From: Asticcacaulis aquaticus
GTDB lineage: Bacteria > Pseudomonadota > Alphaproteobacteria > Caulobacterales > Caulobacteraceae
Direction of reading: 5' to 3'
Length of the DNA stretch: 64,000 bases
Assembly: GCF_028550415.1 (NCBI RefSeq)
Contig: NZ_JAQQKX010000001.1
Location: 62,001 to 126,000, forward strand
The notes beneath the pieces were generated by a model. The model was not told the DNA's origin. It did not search any database and saw only the letters and a list, made by a program, of their open reading frames with translations. Below are positions 46,854-63,547 of the stretch, in pieces. Within the stretch, counting starts at the first letter, position 1. The number at the start of each line of letters is the position of its first letter. The position numbers and the translations under genes are program-made.

Positions 46854-47963
46854 ATGATGTATTTATCAGTAAAGCCAGATTTGCCTACTGTAGAAGATGT
46901 ATTGCCTTATCTTCGGCAGATACACAGTAATGCCCGATATTCAAATTTTGGGCCGCTTTCGACGGAACTGGAAGCGGGGTTACTAAGCGCTTTTGGATCT
47001 GCTGATACAGCAGAGCGGTGTGTATGTGTAAGCAATGCGACCTCAGGGCTGACGGCGGCTCTTCTCGCAGCGGGAGTGAATGGAAAGGTTGCCGTTCCGG
47101 CTTTTACATTTCCGGCTTCCTTAGGAGCCGTTTGCTCGGCCGGTGCCACGCCGGTTATATTTGACGTCTCTATTGATAAGTGGGCATTTGACGAAATTAT
47201 TATAGAAGATATATTAAAGTCTGAAAATATATCGGCAGTAATGATTGTTGAAGCGTTTGGAATACTAACAAATATTGAGAATTTAATCAGAATGTGCTTG
47301 AGTCACGGTGTAAAGGTCATCATAGACTCAGCGGCGGGTTTAGGAGTTAGGCGAACGGGCAGGGTCGTCCATCCCGATGTCTTCGAAATTTTTTCTATGC
47401 ACGCAACAAAACCTTTGGGGATTGGTGAAGGTGGGTGTGTATTTATGCACAATTCACGAGTATCTAATTTTCGTGCCGCAATTAACTTTGCGCTACCTGT
47501 CCACCAAGACCATACGGTGTACTGGGGATTCAATGGAAAAATGTCTGAATACCACGCAGCAGTTGGTCTGGCTCAACTTCGTCGAAGACATGTCTTACTG
47601 CAACAAAGGCAAGGTGTTGTGACGCGCTATATAGAACAAATTAAATTGTTGGATGGTTTGATATTTTCGAGAGAGGTTGCAGCCTCACCTTGGCAATTCT
47701 TCCCTATACGACTGCCCGATGAGCAAACTACAGAAAGCTTCGTAGACCTGGCAGCTCAAAAAGGCGTGGAAATTAGAAGATATTATAGGCCAAGTCTGGC
47801 CTCCATGTACCAAAATTTTGCACACAATTCCTGTCTTTCTTCTGAACAGTTGTCGAAGACAATGTGTGCCCTTCCTGTGCGGTCAGGGAATGCAATTGCT
47901 GAAATGGATGAAATTATTGATGCAGTTTTAGACAGCCTTAAAGGTGCTATGAATTATGCGTGA
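46854..47963 (+). CDS. DegT/DnrJ/EryC1-type sugar aminotransferase
   Basis: A 369-residue PLP enzyme of the sugar aminotransferase family, expected to aminate a keto-sugar nucleotide. VSKPDLP-like VKPDLPTVEDVLPYL and NFGPLSTELE start the fold. The PLP lysine is Lys186 in SMHATKPLGIGEGG and Asp158 lies in IIDSAAG. VPAFTFPAS is typical. Base composition is visibly more AT-rich than clpX or lon. The start codon sits right after the clpX terminator without a clear SD. It overlaps the next gene by 8 bp. Confidence 0.85.
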   Translation: MMYLSVKPDLPTVEDVLPYLRQIHSNARYSNFGPLSTELEAGLLSAFGSADTAERCVCVSNATSGLTAALLAAGVNGKVAVPAFTFPASLGAVCSAGATPVIFDVSIDKWAFDEIIIEDILKSENISAVMIVEAFGILTNIENLIRMCLSHGVKVIIDSAAGLGVRRTGRVVHPDVFEIFSMHATKPLGIGEGGCVFMHNSRVSNFRAAINFALPVHQDHTVYWGFNGKMSEYHAAVGLAQLRRRHVLLQQRQGVVTRYIEQIKLLDGLIFSREVAASPWQFFPIRLPDEQTTESFVDLAAQKGVEIRRYYRPSLASMYQNFAHNSCLSSEQLSKTMCALPVRSGNAIAEMDEIIDAVLDSLKGAMNYA

Positions 47964-52738: not shown

Positions 52739-52814
52739 GGGCGATTAGCTCAGCTGGCAGAGCGGCTCGTTTACACCGAGTAGGTCGGCGGTTCGATCCC
52801 GTCATCGCCCACCA
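52739..52814 (+). tRNA. tRNA-Val (UAC anticodon)
   Basis: 76 nt with encoded CCA. Acceptor GGGCGAT/ATCGCCC, D-arm GCTCAGCTGGCAGAGC, anticodon stem GCTCG/CGAGT with loop TTTACAC (anticodon TAC), T arm GGTTCGATCC. Its 3' end is the likely integration site of the element that follows. Confidence 0.95.
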
Positions 52815-55150: not shown

Positions 55151-58100
55151 TCAGAACTGGAAGCGCGCGCGCAGCGACAGCGACACGTTCTCGTAAGCGT
55201 CCTGCTTCTCGTACTCGCCTTCGATGCCGAAATAGCTGTATTCGTTCGAGGCGGCGATGCGCAGACCGGCCACGGGGCCGCCGCCTTCGACGGTGCCACC
55301 GTGCAGGGTGAACGGCGTCTGGGTGCCGTAACGGGCGACGGTATCGCCGATTTCAACCGAGAAGTTGTTGCGGTAGCCGACCCACAGTTCCGGGCGGAAG
55401 AGGGCGTTCTTGTCCGAGCGGCCGATATTCAGGATCGCCGAACCGCTGAGGATGTGGCTGGTGCGTTCCTCGACAGACAGGTCAAAGGCGACGTCGCCGC
55501 CGGTTTCGGTGTGGGCGTCTTCCTTGAGGCCGTAGTAGTCGGCGCTGAGGAGCGGCGTGAGGCTCAGCCAGCCAGCTTCGAACCCGTAGGAGGCGCCGAC
55601 GCTGCCCGAATAGCTGACGCCATTCCAGGTCGCCTCGTTACGGGAAATGAAGGTGCCTTCCAGAATCTGGCGGGTCGATTCGAGCTTGGTATAACCGGCA
55701 CCGGCGCGGACCCAGCTCTTCAGCCCCGAACCCGTATCCAGACGCCAGTAGACGCCGAGGCTGAGGTCGGTGGCGGTCATGTCCTCTTCGGGCGAGGCAA
55801 AGGTGTCGGAAGGCGAGGCCGCGGTATAGCCCAGATAGAGGCCCGCCGCCTGAGTGGAGGTCAGGCCGCGCTCGACGCCGCCCGCAAAGGCAAAGCCGCG
55901 CGCGTCGAAGCCGGTGACTTCGGCGCGGTCGCGGGTAACCTGATAGCCATATTCCTGCAGCCAGTACTGGTTTTCGCCGGTCGGCGGGATGACTGACTGG
56001 CTGGCCAGGGTGCGGCTCAGGGCGTCATTGCCCTTGGCCAGGCTGAGGAGGGTTTCACCGGAATAGTCGGGCAGGAAGGAGAGGTAGGCCTTCTCGAATC
56101 CGGTTGCCGTGATCGGGTCGAGCAGGGCGTTGGTGGCTCCCGTGGACCCCTGGGCGGCGGTCATGATCGCATCGAAGGCGGCGAATTCGTTCGCCGTCAG
56201 GGTGGTTTCGCTCTGGGTCCGCAGACGGACGTCGGCGAACAGGCTGGTCTTGGCCGTGTCGGTCGACAAGGCCGCCTTGTACAGATACGGGATATTGGCG
56301 TCGAGGCTGGCCGTGTCGAGCGTGCCCAGCGTGATGCTGGAAGCGGTCAGCAGGGTGTAGCGCGTCGGTGCCTTGACGATCTTGGACATACCGATCTGCA
56401 CCTTGGCGCCGGTTTCGAAGACCGCGGGCCCGGCGGAGACGAGCAGTGCCGTGCCCGGGGCGGTCGTATCCGGAATGAAGCGCAGCGTACCGTCCTTGCG
56501 AACGTTCAACTGGCTCAGGTTCAGTCGGGAACCGAGCGCCAGATTAAGGCTGCCGTTGACGATATCGAGATTGACCGTGCCACTGCCGGTCATCTTACCG
56601 GCGACAATGGCCTTGGTATTGATGGTCAGGCTGTTGGCACCACCCCCGAAATCGATATTGCCGAGGATAAAGCCGCCATTGATATTCAGGACATCCGCGC
56701 CGGAGCCCAGCAGGATGTCACCCGTAATGAACGGCGCGGCGACCGTATCGTCGTCCGGCTTGAGGTCGGTCTGGGTCAGGGTCAGGCCCAGCGTATTGCC
56801 GCGGGTATCGATGGCCACGGCGCGATTGGTCGAGGTATCGATCACGCCGTCTCCGTCATCGTCGGTGGCGGTGAGCGAGGCCGAGATGTTCCCGGTATTG
56901 GTCACCCGCGCCAGCAGGTTCGACGCGTCGAAAATCGCCGTGGCGTTGGATTTGGACCCTATGCCCGCGGCCTGAACCGAACCGGCGATATTGAGTTCGG
57001 GCACATTGGCTCCGGTCCCGATATAGATGCCGTAGGCCGTCTGGTTGGTCTTGGAGGCCGCGGTACCCTTCACGAGACCTGAGACGTTGAACTTCGCGGC
57101 CTGAGTGCCCGACAGCAGGCTGACGGCGCGGTTTTCTGCCAGATAAGAAGACGAGGAGACCGATCCTGCGATCAGAATGCCGTTTTCGAACAGGACCGTA
57201 CGACCGAGGCCGCCGGTTTCGATTGCCTTGGCGGCGATGCCGTCCAGCACGCCAGCCGACGTCACCGAACCCCGGACGACGAGGCCGAACTTCTGATCCT
57301 TGTACAGATCCGTCGCGGTCGAGGCGATGTTGATGGCGTTAAGCGTGATATCCTGCGTCGCCGACCCGATCCTGAGCGCGGCGGCACCACCGAACTGGCT
57401 CAGGGAGGCCGCACCGTCGAGCGTATCGTCGATGCCGTTGCCGTCTTCGTCATTGTTCGGCGTGGTGACGGTCGCGGCATCCGTATTGGTGATGGCGGAC
57501 TGGATCAGAAGGCCCTGGGTGATGTTCGAGGCGATATTGATCAGAGGCCCGGCCTGAAGCTTGTCTTCGGCTTGCAGCTTGTCCAGCGTCGCCTGATCCG
57601 GGATGGATGTGAGACGGTAACCGCTGCCGGCGATCGTGCCGTCGATGATCACGGCGCCGTTGACGCCCCCGGTGAGGTTCAGGGCCGTGGCGCCTTCGCC
57701 CAGCACGCCGACCGAACCCCCGATGATCAGACGACCGGTAACCGCATTCTCGAACGAGAAGCCGCGGGCATTGTTGCCGACGACGGTCAGACTGCCCTTG
57801 TGGGTCAGGTTACCGGTGAGGGCGTTTTCAAAGCGGACCCCATAAGAATTATTACCCTCGACCAGAATGACACTGCCGGTCGTCGTCGTGGTGGCGGCCA
57901 GGAAGTCGATATTACCGACATAGGGCGTGGTGCCGGCCGAACGGAAGGCATAACGGCCCGTGCCGGTGGCGAAAGCGCCGTCGGTGATTCCGTCCACTGG
58001 GCTGTCGGTATCGGTGGGCGTATAGTCGTCGGTGACGGTAATCTTGCCGGAGACCGACACGCTGCCGGTGCGACCGCCGTCGACATAGATGGCGGTCGCA

Positions 58101-58375
58101 TTATCGCCGGACGCCGACATGTCGATGGCACCGGCCATGGTCAGCTTGTTATTGGAATCGATCGTCACCGCACGGGCGTTGGCGTCCTTGAGCGTAATCG
58201 TGCCGGCCGAGGTAATATTGATATCGTCGGCCGTCCCGCCGGTGCCGATGGTGGCCGTGCGTACCGGCGTCGTGGTCGCGGTCGTGATGCTGGTTTCGGC
58301 CTGAGCCTGCGCCCCGAGGGCGACGGCCATGACGAGGCCGAGGGCAGTGGCGTTAAACAGATGAGATTTGCGCAT
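55151..58375 (-). CDS. Large autotransporter (type Va) with beta-helix passenger
   Basis: A 1,074-residue secreted protein. The signal peptide ends near AQAQA (residue 26). A long, Gly/Asn/Thr-rich beta-helix passenger runs to about 800, with two acidic loops (NDEDGNGIDD and DDDGDGVID) resembling calcium-binding type-3 repeats. A C-terminal autotransporter barrel (about 810-1074) ends in RARFQF, a typical outer membrane end. Likely an adhesin or surface protein; no protease or lipase motif was seen. No partner genes. Confidence 0.87.
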   Translation of the reverse strand: MRKSHLFNATALGLVMAVALGAQAQAETSITTATTTPVRTATIGTGGTADDINITSAGTITLKDANARAVTIDSNNKLTMAGAIDMSASGDNATAIYVDGGRTGSVSVSGKITVTDDYTPTDTDSPVDGITDGAFATGTGRYAFRSAGTTPYVGNIDFLAATTTTTGSVILVEGNNSYGVRFENALTGNLTHKGSLTVVGNNARGFSFENAVTGRLIIGGSVGVLGEGATALNLTGGVNGAVIIDGTIAGSGYRLTSIPDQATLDKLQAEDKLQAGPLINIASNITQGLLIQSAITNTDAATVTTPNNDEDGNGIDDTLDGAASLSQFGGAAALRIGSATQDITLNAINIASTATDLYKDQKFGLVVRGSVTSAGVLDGIAAKAIETGGLGRTVLFENGILIAGSVSSSSYLAENRAVSLLSGTQAAKFNVSGLVKGTAASKTNQTAYGIYIGTGANVPELNIAGSVQAAGIGSKSNATAIFDASNLLARVTNTGNISASLTATDDDGDGVIDTSTNRAVAIDTRGNTLGLTLTQTDLKPDDDTVAAPFITGDILLGSGADVLNINGGFILGNIDFGGGANSLTINTKAIVAGKMTGSGTVNLDIVNGSLNLALGSRLNLSQLNVRKDGTLRFIPDTTAPGTALLVSAGPAVFETGAKVQIGMSKIVKAPTRYTLLTASSITLGTLDTASLDANIPYLYKAALSTDTAKTSLFADVRLRTQSETTLTANEFAAFDAIMTAAQGSTGATNALLDPITATGFEKAYLSFLPDYSGETLLSLAKGNDALSRTLASQSVIPPTGENQYWLQEYGYQVTRDRAEVTGFDARGFAFAGGVERGLTSTQAAGLYLGYTAASPSDTFASPEEDMTATDLSLGVYWRLDTGSGLKSWVRAGAGYTKLESTRQILEGTFISRNEATWNGVSYSGSVGASYGFEAGWLSLTPLLSADYYGLKEDAHTETGGDVAFDLSVEERTSHILSGSAILNIGRSDKNALFRPELWVGYRNNFSVEIGDTVARYGTQTPFTLHGGTVEGGGPVAGLRIAASNEYSYFGIEGEYEKQDAYENVSLSLRARFQF

Positions 58376-58712: not shown

Positions 58713-58827
58713 TGGCGCGAGTGACGGGGCTCGAACCCGCGACCTTCGGCGTGACAGGCCGACACTCTAACCAACTGAGCTACACCCGCATTCCATAATG
58801 ATTATCAAGTTTTGCGAGGCCACCTGA
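58681..58827 (-). repeat. Direct duplication of a tRNA-Asp unit
   Basis: TGCGAGGCCACCTGA occurs at 58681-58695 and again at 58813-58827, each about 18-20 bp beyond a tRNA-Asp 3' end. The duplicated unit is therefore larger than the tRNA itself, about 130 bp. Confidence 0.75.
58713..58789 (-). tRNA. tRNA-Asp (GUC anticodon), copy 1
   Basis: 77 nt with CCA. Acceptor GCGGGTG/CACTCGC, D-arm GCTCAGTTGGTTAGAG, anticodon GTC in CCTGTCACGCC, T arm GGGTTCGAGCCC. Identical to the copy at 58848-58924. Confidence 0.96.
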
Positions 58828-58847: not shown

Positions 58848-58924
58848 TGGCGCGAGTGACGGGGCTCGAACCCGCGACCTTCGGCGTGACAGGCCGACAC
58901 TCTAACCAACTGAGCTACACCCGC
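58848..58924 (-). tRNA. tRNA-Asp (GUC anticodon), copy 2
   Basis: Identical 77-nt tRNA-Asp, 58 bp upstream (in transcription direction) of copy 1, with encoded CCA. Confidence 0.96.
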
Positions 58925-60822: not shown

Positions 60823-62085
60823 ATGGCTGATGAACTGAAAAACCCGATGGCCTCCTTTGTCGATGCGAAGACCGGTGCCGTATTCGACGATGTCGAGGCG
60901 CGCTCCAGCTTCGATGACCGCAAATTCACCATCAATTTCGGCCCGCAGCACCCGGCGGCGCACGGCGTTCTGCGTCTGGTGCTCGACCTCGACGGCGAAA
61001 TCGTCGAGCGCGTTGATCCGCATATCGGCCTGCTGCATCGCGGTACCGAAAAGCTGATGGAATACCGCACCTATCTGCAGAACACGCCCTATTTCGACCG
61101 CCTCGACTACGTGGCGCCGATGAATCAGGAGCACGCTTTCTGTCTGGCGATCGAGCGTCTGCTCGGTCTCGAAGTGCCCAAGCGCGCCCAGCTGATCCGC
61201 GTCCTGTTCTCGGAAGTCGGTCGCATCCTGTCGCACCTGCTCAACATCACGACCCAGGCCATGGACGTCGGCGCGCTGACGCCGCCGCTGTGGGGCTTCG
61301 AAGAGCGCGAAAAACTGATGGTGTTTTATGAACGCGCCTGCGGGGCGCGTCTGCACGCCAACTATTTCCGTCCGGGCGGCGTCCATCAGGACCTGACGCC
61401 GGAACTGATCGAAGACATGATCACCTGGTGCAAGGAATTCCCGCGCGCCCTGGCTGACATCGAATCGCTCGTTACGGAAAACCGCATCTTCAAGCAGCGC
61501 AACGTCGATATCGGCCTTGTGACCAAGCAGCAGGCCTATGACTGGGGCTTCACCGGCGTCATGATTCGCGGGTCGGGCGTGCCTTGGGATCTGCGCAAGT
61601 CGCAGCCTTACGAGTGCTACGACGAGCTCGATTTCGAGATCGTTCTGGGCAAGAACGGCGACTGCTGGGACCGTTACCTGTGCCGCGTCGAGGAAATGCG
61701 CATCGCCGCCGACCTCATGCTGCAGTGCCTTGAAAAGCTGAAAGTCACGCCGGGCGAAGTGCTGGCCGCCGACCACAAGGTCACGCCGCCGCGCCGCGCC
61801 GAGATGAAGAACTCGATGGAAGCGCTGATCCATCACTTCAAGCTCTATACCGAAGGCTTCAAGACGCCGCCGGGCGAGGTCTATGCCGCCGTCGAAGCAC
61901 CGAAGGGCGAATTCGGCGTCTATCTGGTCTCGGACGGCACCAACAAGCCCTACCGCTGCAAGATCCGCGCGCCGGGCTTTGCCCACCTGCAGGCGATGGA
62001 CTGGATGAACCGCGGCCACATGCTGGCTGATGTCTCGGCGATCCTCGGCTCGCTCGACATCGTGTTCGGCGAGGTCGATCGATGA
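60823..62085 (+). CDS. nuoD: NADH-quinone oxidoreductase subunit D
   Basis: A 420-residue 49-kDa type subunit that forms the quinone site with Nuo[54 protein letters not shown] and the C-terminal DIVFGEVDR are typical. ATG 60823 (MADELKNP) follows the nuoC stop by 4 bp. Its stop overlaps the next gene by 4 bp (ATGA). Confidence 0.96.
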
Positions 62086-62483
62086 ACCCCGACTTCCCGC
62101 ACGATGCGGCGCATCTGGCGCCCTATATGATGGTGGTGATGCCGCTGATCGTCGGTTCGACGATTATCGCCGCCATCATTCTCGTGCGCTGGCTGATGAG
62201 CAAGTCGGCCTGGAATTTCCATCCGGGCGGGGCCAATGGCTTCCTGTACGATGAGTTCCTGCGTCTGGGGGCGATCTTCATCCCCTATATGCTGATCGGC
62301 GTGGCCCTTCGCTGGTACATCTATGTTATGCACCCCGAGCTGTCGCATTCGCCGGCCCTGATCGGCGCTCTGGTGGTGATCTTTATCATGCGCCGCTTTT
62401 CGCGCTACATTCCGTTCGTGCGCGATGCGGGCAACCGGATCGACGCTGCTCGTGCGGCCTGTAAGGCGGGGAGGGCCGCATAA
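62082..62483 (+). CDS. Small membrane protein in the nuo operon, paralogue A
   Basis: 133 residues, three likely spans (about 15-37, 63-82 and 91-104). Between the first two lies FHPGGANGF (46-54), shared as FHPxGAxG with the next gene product. Similarity continues with [15 protein letters not shown] and the basic end [15 protein letters not shown]. It starts inside the nuoD stop and overlaps the next gene by 1 bp. No known Nuo subunit matches; I do not recognise the family. It could be an assembly factor or lineage-specific accessory subunit of complex I. Confidence 0.75.
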
Positions 62484-62836
62484 TGCAAACCTGGCAATCC
62501 TTTCTGCTCGTCATCGTCTTCCTGACGGTTGCCATCGGCCTGCGCTACATGCTGGGTCGCGCCGCATTTGCCTTCCATCCGGACGGCGCCACGGGGTACC
62601 TCAGGGACCTTCTGCTGGAAACCGCCGTGTCCTATGTGCCGCTGCTGGTGATCATTTTCGGCGTGAAACTCTATATCGATGCCAACCCGCAGCAGGCGGA
62701 ATCGCCGCTGGTCTTTGCGTCGATCGGCATTGCCGTGGTGTCCATGCTGCTGGCCAAGCGCTTGCCGCTGGTCAAGGCGGCCTCGACGCGCATGATGAAG
62801 GCGCGTCACGACCGTTGGGAGGCTCTGAAACAATGA
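62483..62836 (+). CDS. Small membrane protein in the nuo operon, paralogue B
   Basis: 117 residues with three likely spans (about 5-24, 47-65 and 75-92), FHPDGATGYL at 31-40, VPLLVIIFGVKLYI and LPLVKAASTRMMKAR at the end. It aligns along its length with the 62082-62483 product, so the two arose by tandem duplication. It overlaps that gene by one base (TAATG) and a 16-codon frame downstream by 4 bp. Function unknown. Confidence 0.75.
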   Translation: MQTWQSFLLVIVFLTVAIGLRYMLGRAAFAFHPDGATGYLRDLLLETAVSYVPLLVIIFGVKLYIDANPQQAESPLVFASIGIAVVSMLLAKRLPLVKAASTRMMKARHDRWEALKQ

Positions 62837-62883
62837 GCCGCTTAAATAAAAACTATTTCGTACCCCAGATGAGAGAGGCCTGA
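62833..62883 (+). CDS. Possible 16-codon peptide ORF before nuoE
   Basis: ATG 62833 to TGA 62881-62883 encodes MSRLNKNYFVPQMREA. It is coupled to the preceding gene through an ATGA overlap and ends one base before the nuoE start. Its last codons include GAGAGAGG, the SD of nuoE. It may only relay ribosomes to nuoE; whether the peptide matters is unknown. Confidence 0.35.
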   Translation: MSRLNKNYFVPQMREA

Positions 62884-62884
62884 G

Positions 62885-63547
62885 ATGTCCGTTCGCCGTC
62901 TCGCCGCCGTTCAGCCGGAAAGCTTTACCTTCAAGCCTGAAACGCTTGAAAAGGCTAACTGGTGGATTGCCAAATACCCAGACTCCCGCCGTCAGTCGGC
63001 GGTCATTCCGATCCTGTGGCTGGTTCAGAAGCAGGAAGGCTGGGTCAGTGAGCCCGCCATCACGGCCATCGCCAAGATGCTCGGTATGCCGCAGATTCGC
63101 GTCTATGAGGTCGCGACCTTCTACACCATGTTCATGCTTGAGCCGGTAGGCTCCGCGGCGCTGATTCAGGTGTGCGGCACGACCCCGTGCCAATTGCGTG
63201 GCTCCGAAGCCCTGATGAAGGTGTGCAAGGACAAGATCGGCCCGAAGGACAAGCTTTCGGCGGACGGCAAGTTCTACTGGCAGGAAGTCGAATGCCTTGG
63301 TGCCTGCACCAATGCCCCAATGGCGCAGATCAACGACTATTTCTACGAAGACCTGACGCCGGATAATCTGGCCCAGATCATCGACGATTTCGCCGCCGGC
63401 AAGACACCGAAGACGGGGCCGTACAATGGCCGTTTCACGTCCGAACCTCTGGGTGGCGCGACCAGCCTGACCGATCCGTCGCTGTTCGACGGCTCGCTGG
63501 CCAAGCCGATTAAGATTCCGAACGCTCCCGAAGCGGAGAAAGCGTAA
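62885..63547 (+). CDS. nuoE: NADH-quinone oxidoreductase subunit E
   Basis: A 220-residue 24-kDa type subunit with a thioredoxin-like [2Fe-2S] domain. Ligands appear in [12 protein letters not shown] and [13 protein letters not shown]-terminal extension of about 50 residues beyond the core (after [12 protein letters not shown]) is seen in alphaproteobacterial NuoE. AGAGAGG precedes ATG 62885. The stop overlaps nuoF by one base. Confidence 0.95.

Follow-up and report, generated by a model that had tools for sequence, protein, structure and literature searches.

Two small genes between nuoD and nuoE

Within the window, the stretch of 64,000 nucleotides of Asticcacaulis aquaticus DNA analysed here, two open reading frames, A and B, lie between nuoD and nuoE of the complex I operon (62082-62483 and 62483-62836), which is where the original prediction had placed them. 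The features of this region, in window positions, are:

60823..62085, + strand: nuoD, 420 aa, with tblastn relatives; its stop overlaps the start of ORF A
62082..62483, + strand: ORF A (P0001), ATG start, 133 aa, predicted three-span membrane protein, A-type
62220..62252, + strand: core motif of ORF A, residues 47-57, with H, G, G and D invariant or nearly so
62481..62485, + strand: TAATG stop/start overlap of A with B
62483..62836, + strand: ORF B (P0002), ATG start, 117 aa, predicted three-span membrane protein, B-type
62576..62608, + strand: core motif of ORF B, HPDGATGYLRD, residues 32-42
62837..62884, + strand: 48-nt spacer between B and nuoE, with the Shine-Dalgarno-like stretch of nuoE, agagaggcctgag
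62885..63547, + strand: nuoE, 220 aa

The junction of nuoD with A is an ATGA at 62082-62085. The claim that all junctions in this part of the operon are overlaps holds for nuoD/A and for A/B (TAATG), but not for B and nuoE, which are separated by the 48-nt spacer (62837-62884). A 16-codon frame at 62833-62883 shares an ATGA overlap with the stop of B and ends 1 nt before nuoE. We considered it as a coupling peptide and set it aside: a frame of equal length is found in the spacers of near relatives, the peptides differ, and, as read by eye in these spacers, the peptide is mostly unconserved past the Shine-Dalgarno stretch. The frame is probably not a gene, and it may explain why the original prediction ended at position 62883.

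Several other features were observed around the operon. Directly after nuoF and beyond the end of the window (L232:1331-1771) lies a gene for a 146-aa TM2-domain protein (PF05154, E 2e-14), a second extra gene of the nuo operon; nuoG, expected after it, was not identified in the ORF list there. A tandem pair of tRNA-Asp (gtc) genes is located just upstream of the operon (58713-58789 and 58848-58924, - strand), and a 1074-aa ORF at 55151-58375 (- strand) has, by eye, the look of a putative autotransporter-type outer-membrane protein. ARAGORN calls a 90-nt tRNA-Val (tac) at 47074-47163, compared to 76 nt for the tRNA-Val (tac) at 52739-52814; the longer call may be false or may mark an odd gene.

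Family, conserved core and predicted fold

A and B are paralogous, as had been proposed. BLASTP aligns them with 27% identity over 90 columns (E 1e-14), and a search of their own genome with A returns A itself and B alone, the latter at E 1.7e-10. The motifs described for the two proteins are present in the translations, with FHPDGATGYL and LPLVKAASTRMMKAR in B and RWYI in A fitting the patterns, and the other motifs of A likewise. The FHPxGAxG signature occurs in both, but its exact form is not conserved among relatives. In an alignment of 39 rows the core of the family is instead H-x2-G-x2-G-x3-D, in which the histidine is kept in 38 rows and both glycines and the aspartate in all 39, while the proline of FHP is kept in 32 and the first position is variable. 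Outside the core, Pro-53 and Pro-95 (B numbering) are kept in 37 and 36 of the 39 rows, respectively. Departures from the core are seen in the first of the two proteins in the nuoD-nuoE slot of G721 (outside the 39 rows, read by eye), where an arginine replaces the first glycine, and in the slot protein of G774, which has a tyrosine in place of the histidine. A and B themselves carry the core residues, the three spans and the proline and basic tail by which we recognize the H-x2-G-x2-G-x3-D slot family.

Neither protein reaches a cut-off in Pfam or NCBIfam, and 19 family members searched against the same two collections gave weak, scattered matches only. The best PDB match by sequence has an E of 0.99, and Foldseek against the PDB returned nothing at or below an E of 0.001, its lowest values being 1.6 (B) and 6.6 (A). 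The nearest entry, DUF6256 (PF19770), weakly matches B over its full length (E 7e-4) and 2 of the 19 family members (best E 9e-5). However, B scores 20.1 bits against a gathering cut-off of 25, A shows no match and 17 of the 19 members are unmatched at E 1, and we do not place A and B in this entry. Our literature search, in which subscription journals were thinly covered, turned up no entry naming genes that lie between nuoD and nuoE of Caulobacteraceae.

Could A and B be diverged duplicates of NuoA, the core subunit that also has three spans and is encoded in the same operon? A comparison of profiles gives a probability of only 0.1%, and when NuoA is scored against the family profile, 252 of 300 shuffles score as high, which makes this origin very improbable. 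The description of A and B as an unknown family is borne out by scores below every Pfam and NCBIfam cut-off. Nor did they turn out to belong to a known, unrelated family scattered outside nuo loci, since no known family was matched.

Hydropathy gives three membrane spans in A and three in B, the number originally assigned to each, and AlphaFold2 (AF2) models agree. The model of B (mean pLDDT 90.6, pTM 0.73) consists of helices at residues 2-24, 26-31, 35-67, 75-91 and 95-116, and that of A (mean pLDDT 84.9, pTM 0.69) is built alike behind a flexible N-terminal stretch, so that both comprise three long helices followed by a C-terminal one. In the models, the core motif is located at the break that separates the second span from the short (interface) helix. 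Over the 39 rows, the tail carries on average 6.85 Lys and Arg vs. 1.87 Asp and Glu; the corresponding values are 2.38 vs. 1.82 in the first loop and 0.51 vs. 1.62 in the second. From these charges we infer that the H-x2-G-x2-G-x3-D loop and the strongly basic C-terminal helix would face the cytoplasm.

Such a position, together with the near invariance of the histidine and aspartate, would suit a redox or quinone-side subunit in which these two residues would serve as ligands of a metal or haem, or contact quinone, on the cytoplasmic side of the membrane; the histidine had earlier been suggested as a possible ligand or quinone-side residue. We nevertheless regard this role as improbable. There is only one conserved histidine and one conserved aspartate, at the break before the second span, the G774 protein does without the histidine, and no cofactor protein was matched by sequence or fold. 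Moreover, the spacing of the two glycines suits helix packing, and it is simpler to assign these residues a structural role; invariant H, G, G and D at a helix break are equally what structure alone would give.

Between genomes G000 and G012, A has a dN/dS of 0.15 and B one of 0.26, compared to 0.02 for NuoD and 0.05 for NuoE, and both proteins change at several times the rate of these core subunits. Over 18 comparisons within the family the ratio lies between 0 and 0.32, with the highest value in a pair whose dS is only 0.04. The genes are therefore real and functional and are kept by purifying selection, under a looser constraint than the core subunits. Taken together, A and B are members of a Caulobacteraceae-restricted family of predicted three-span inner-membrane proteins of about 115-150 aa.

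The nuoD-nuoE slot in Asticcacaulis and its relatives

Relatives that carry names were Asticcacaulis at 10 of 10 loci. Among 25 genomes of this genus, the slot between nuoD and nuoE holds one family gene in 18, two in 5 and none in 2 (G007 and G010). The view of A and B as a pair is hence correct for the present genome but not general, as two-gene slots occur in only 5 of the 25. Where two genes are present, their order is A-B (G000, G012) or B'-A (G018, G021, G024). With types assigned by tree, or by identity where a genome lies outside the tree, 14 genomes have a B-type in the slot, 7 have a B'-type, and in G008 and G015 the A-type is the only one there. In the tree, nine B rows fall on one side of a branch (support 98/94) and five B' rows do likewise (100/98); the A rows are separated by an open branch only (85/70), which includes two long rows of another genus. 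In all 23 occupied slots, as read by eye, the first gene has a start codon that shares 1 or 4 nt with the stop of nuoD, which supports the proposal that these proteins are produced in step with Nuo subunits. This start is GTG in G008 and G015, the latter also having a later alternative ATG.

Ten of the 25 genomes carry an A-type copy outside nuo (G001, G006, G011, G015, G016, G017, G019, G020, G022 and G023), and in every one of them the slot still holds a member. In G007 and G010, where the slot is emptied, no family member was found elsewhere either. The outside copies of A. excentricus CB 48 and M6 reside on plasmids (pASTEX01 and pASEM-1, respectively). Three plasmid records match A, all from Asticcacaulis, where RefSeq labels the relatives “hypothetical protein”; no phage record matches B. 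The outside copy in G001 is interrupted by a TGA, and for that of M6 the annotated start lies later. Comparison of the flanks within about 3.6-3.9 kb shows that G017 and G022 share both sides, with one downstream gene in common with G020, that G001, G006, G011, G019 and G023 partly share theirs, and that G016 shares none and G015 has one weak match. The outside copies thus lie in two to four different neighbourhoods, and the flanks compared over this distance point to no particular functional partner.

The gap in G007 is identical to the spacer before nuoE of G008 at 59 of 70 columns, including 54 of the last 58, so the ORF looks to have been cleanly removed with nuoD and nuoE left whole. Since an A-type member alone (G008, G015) or a B-type one can fill the slot, selection seems to retain one member in place.

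A broader profile finds matches in 33 of 199 Caulobacteraceae genomes, of which 23 are Asticcacaulis. The other 10, from four further genera, all have one or more members in the nuoD-nuoE slot, some members outside Asticcacaulis having diverged to about 17-30% identity. Confinement to nuo operons, which had been anticipated, consequently describes the genomes outside Asticcacaulis (10 of 10) but not Asticcacaulis itself, with its A-type copies elsewhere in 10 of 25. Searches at the level of order, class and phylum matched 4 of 299, 2 of 385 and 3 of 398 genomes, all Caulobacteraceae, in agreement with lineage specificity; as few candidates were scored per genome (10-14 at these levels, 10-22 over all wide searches), distant members can be missed, and the absence counts are soft because results depend on the profile (G044 was missed with profile A1 and found with A2). 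Every one of 60 sampled Caulobacteraceae genomes has a NuoE match, that of G733 being weak, so co-occurrence with complex I says little.

The content of the slot could be read in 58 of these 60 genomes. It is closed in 14, contains a short gap (21-200 nt) in 8 and clearly holds the H-x2-G-x2-G-x3-D family in 13. SnoaL-like genes are found in 19 (in 3 beside the family, in 1 beside an SPRRR gene and in 1 with nuoD not in view). “SPRRR”, a name coined here for a kind of three-span protein encoded upstream of nuoE, accounts for 7 (1 beside a SnoaL-like gene, 2 with nuoD not in view), and one gap of more than 200 nt holds none of these three kinds. Pfam SnoaL_2 was confirmed for two slot genes (L068 and L125); the SnoaL_2 (NTF2-like) slot proteins have 111-116 aa (e.g. 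L068:1162-1497 and L125:2349-2699). In Caulobacteraceae the nuoD-nuoE junction is an insertion site whose content varies. Outside this family the junction is closed at 25 of 27 measured alphaproteobacterial loci (28 loci from 54 genomes with a NuoE match), while four other families of the order have gaps of more than 200 nt in 8 of 14, with varied genes. At L219:435-1112, L220 and L221, from Caulobacterales outside Caulobacteraceae, a two-domain SnoaL-like slot gene was observed amid genes for small membrane proteins.

This variability raises the question of whether A and B have anything to do with complex I. They could be passengers, trapped at an insertion-tolerant junction of a strongly expressed operon and passed on at that position while performing a job of their own, perhaps related to the envelope or lipids. 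The unrelated genes and closed junctions just described point in this direction, as do the clean losses, the escape of the A-type to plasmids, and the selection seen on A-type copies away from nuo (three pairs with dN/dS 0.09-0.13). On the other hand, one small three-span kind occupies the slot repeatedly across several genera and is found elsewhere only as the Asticcacaulis A-type copies, the ten genomes with such a copy all retain a slot member, and the first gene remains coupled to the nuoD stop in all 23 occupied slots. A passenger origin is a serious contender, to which we give appreciably less than an even chance.

The SPRRR proteins of other Caulobacteraceae resemble A and B in place, length, three spans and a P-x basic tail, and with the family profile four of six beat nearly all local shuffles (0, 1, 1 and 2 of 300 as high). 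One of the seven SPRRR genomes also gives a weak score with this profile. In contrast, these proteins lack H-x2-G-x2-G-x3-D, the other two of the six are not outstanding (13 and 83 of 300 shuffles as high), and the profile-profile probability is only 10%. Judged by sequence, these proteins may be distantly related to the A/B family.

A role at complex I and comparison with known systems

The reading we favour, tentatively and at slightly below even chances, is that A and B are lineage-specific, dispensable accessory or assembly proteins of complex I. They occupy the nuoD-nuoE slot and would be translated in step with NuoD. The motif loop and the basic C-terminal helix, cytoplasmic by their charge, could bind at the NuoD/NuoB/NuoH junction during assembly of the enzyme, a contact that we infer; alternatively, they could help to hold complex I in the membrane. 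We lean towards this role because the slot is kept across genera despite low identity, because coupling to nuoD is retained in every occupied slot, and because genomes with a copy elsewhere keep one in place. In the related Caulobacter crescentus the nuo genes form an essential operon (PMC13001252). An insert that harms its translation should therefore not last, and since an essential operon is rarely broken, the persistence of A and B at this position counts for less than it might seem. An obligatory subunit is argued against by the loss of members, the escape of the A-type and the variability of the slot.

A wider proposal would unite the H-x2-G-x2-G-x3-D and SPRRR kinds in one fast-evolving superfamily of complex I membrane subunits of Caulobacterales, docking at one common place, duplicated, swapped between A- and B-type and lost in some lineages, with the second copy on Asticcacaulis plasmids perhaps tuning complex I in trans. 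We consider it unlikely because two of the six SPRRR proteins fail the shuffle control.

With one, two or no members at a fixed junction and further copies on plasmids, the family would allow gain and loss of an accessory protein to be tested within one genus. Should A and B be passengers only, the junction still offers a clear example of a cargo slot with variable content, in an operon that a close relative cannot do without. On current views complex I gained its extra subunits stepwise en route to mitochondria, and few bacterial examples of such subunits are known. Unidentified reading frames occur inside the nuo/nqo operons of Rhodobacter capsulatus and Paracoccus. Like A and B these are extra small genes set between nuo genes, in step with them, although the comparison is one of place only, and our class-level profile search gave no A/B relative outside Caulobacteraceae.

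The solved alphaproteobacterial enzyme, complex I of Paracoccus denitrificans, has other extra subunits (PMC11522691). Its supernumerary subunits include NDUFS4, NDUFS6, NDUFA12 and an L-isoaspartyl-O-methyltransferase (PMC11522691, PMC8115037). These are known by purification and structure and are located on the hydrophilic arm, whereas A and B are predicted membrane proteins known from their genes alone. What the Paracoccus subunits share with A and B is that they are small, lineage-bound additions to the 14-subunit core.
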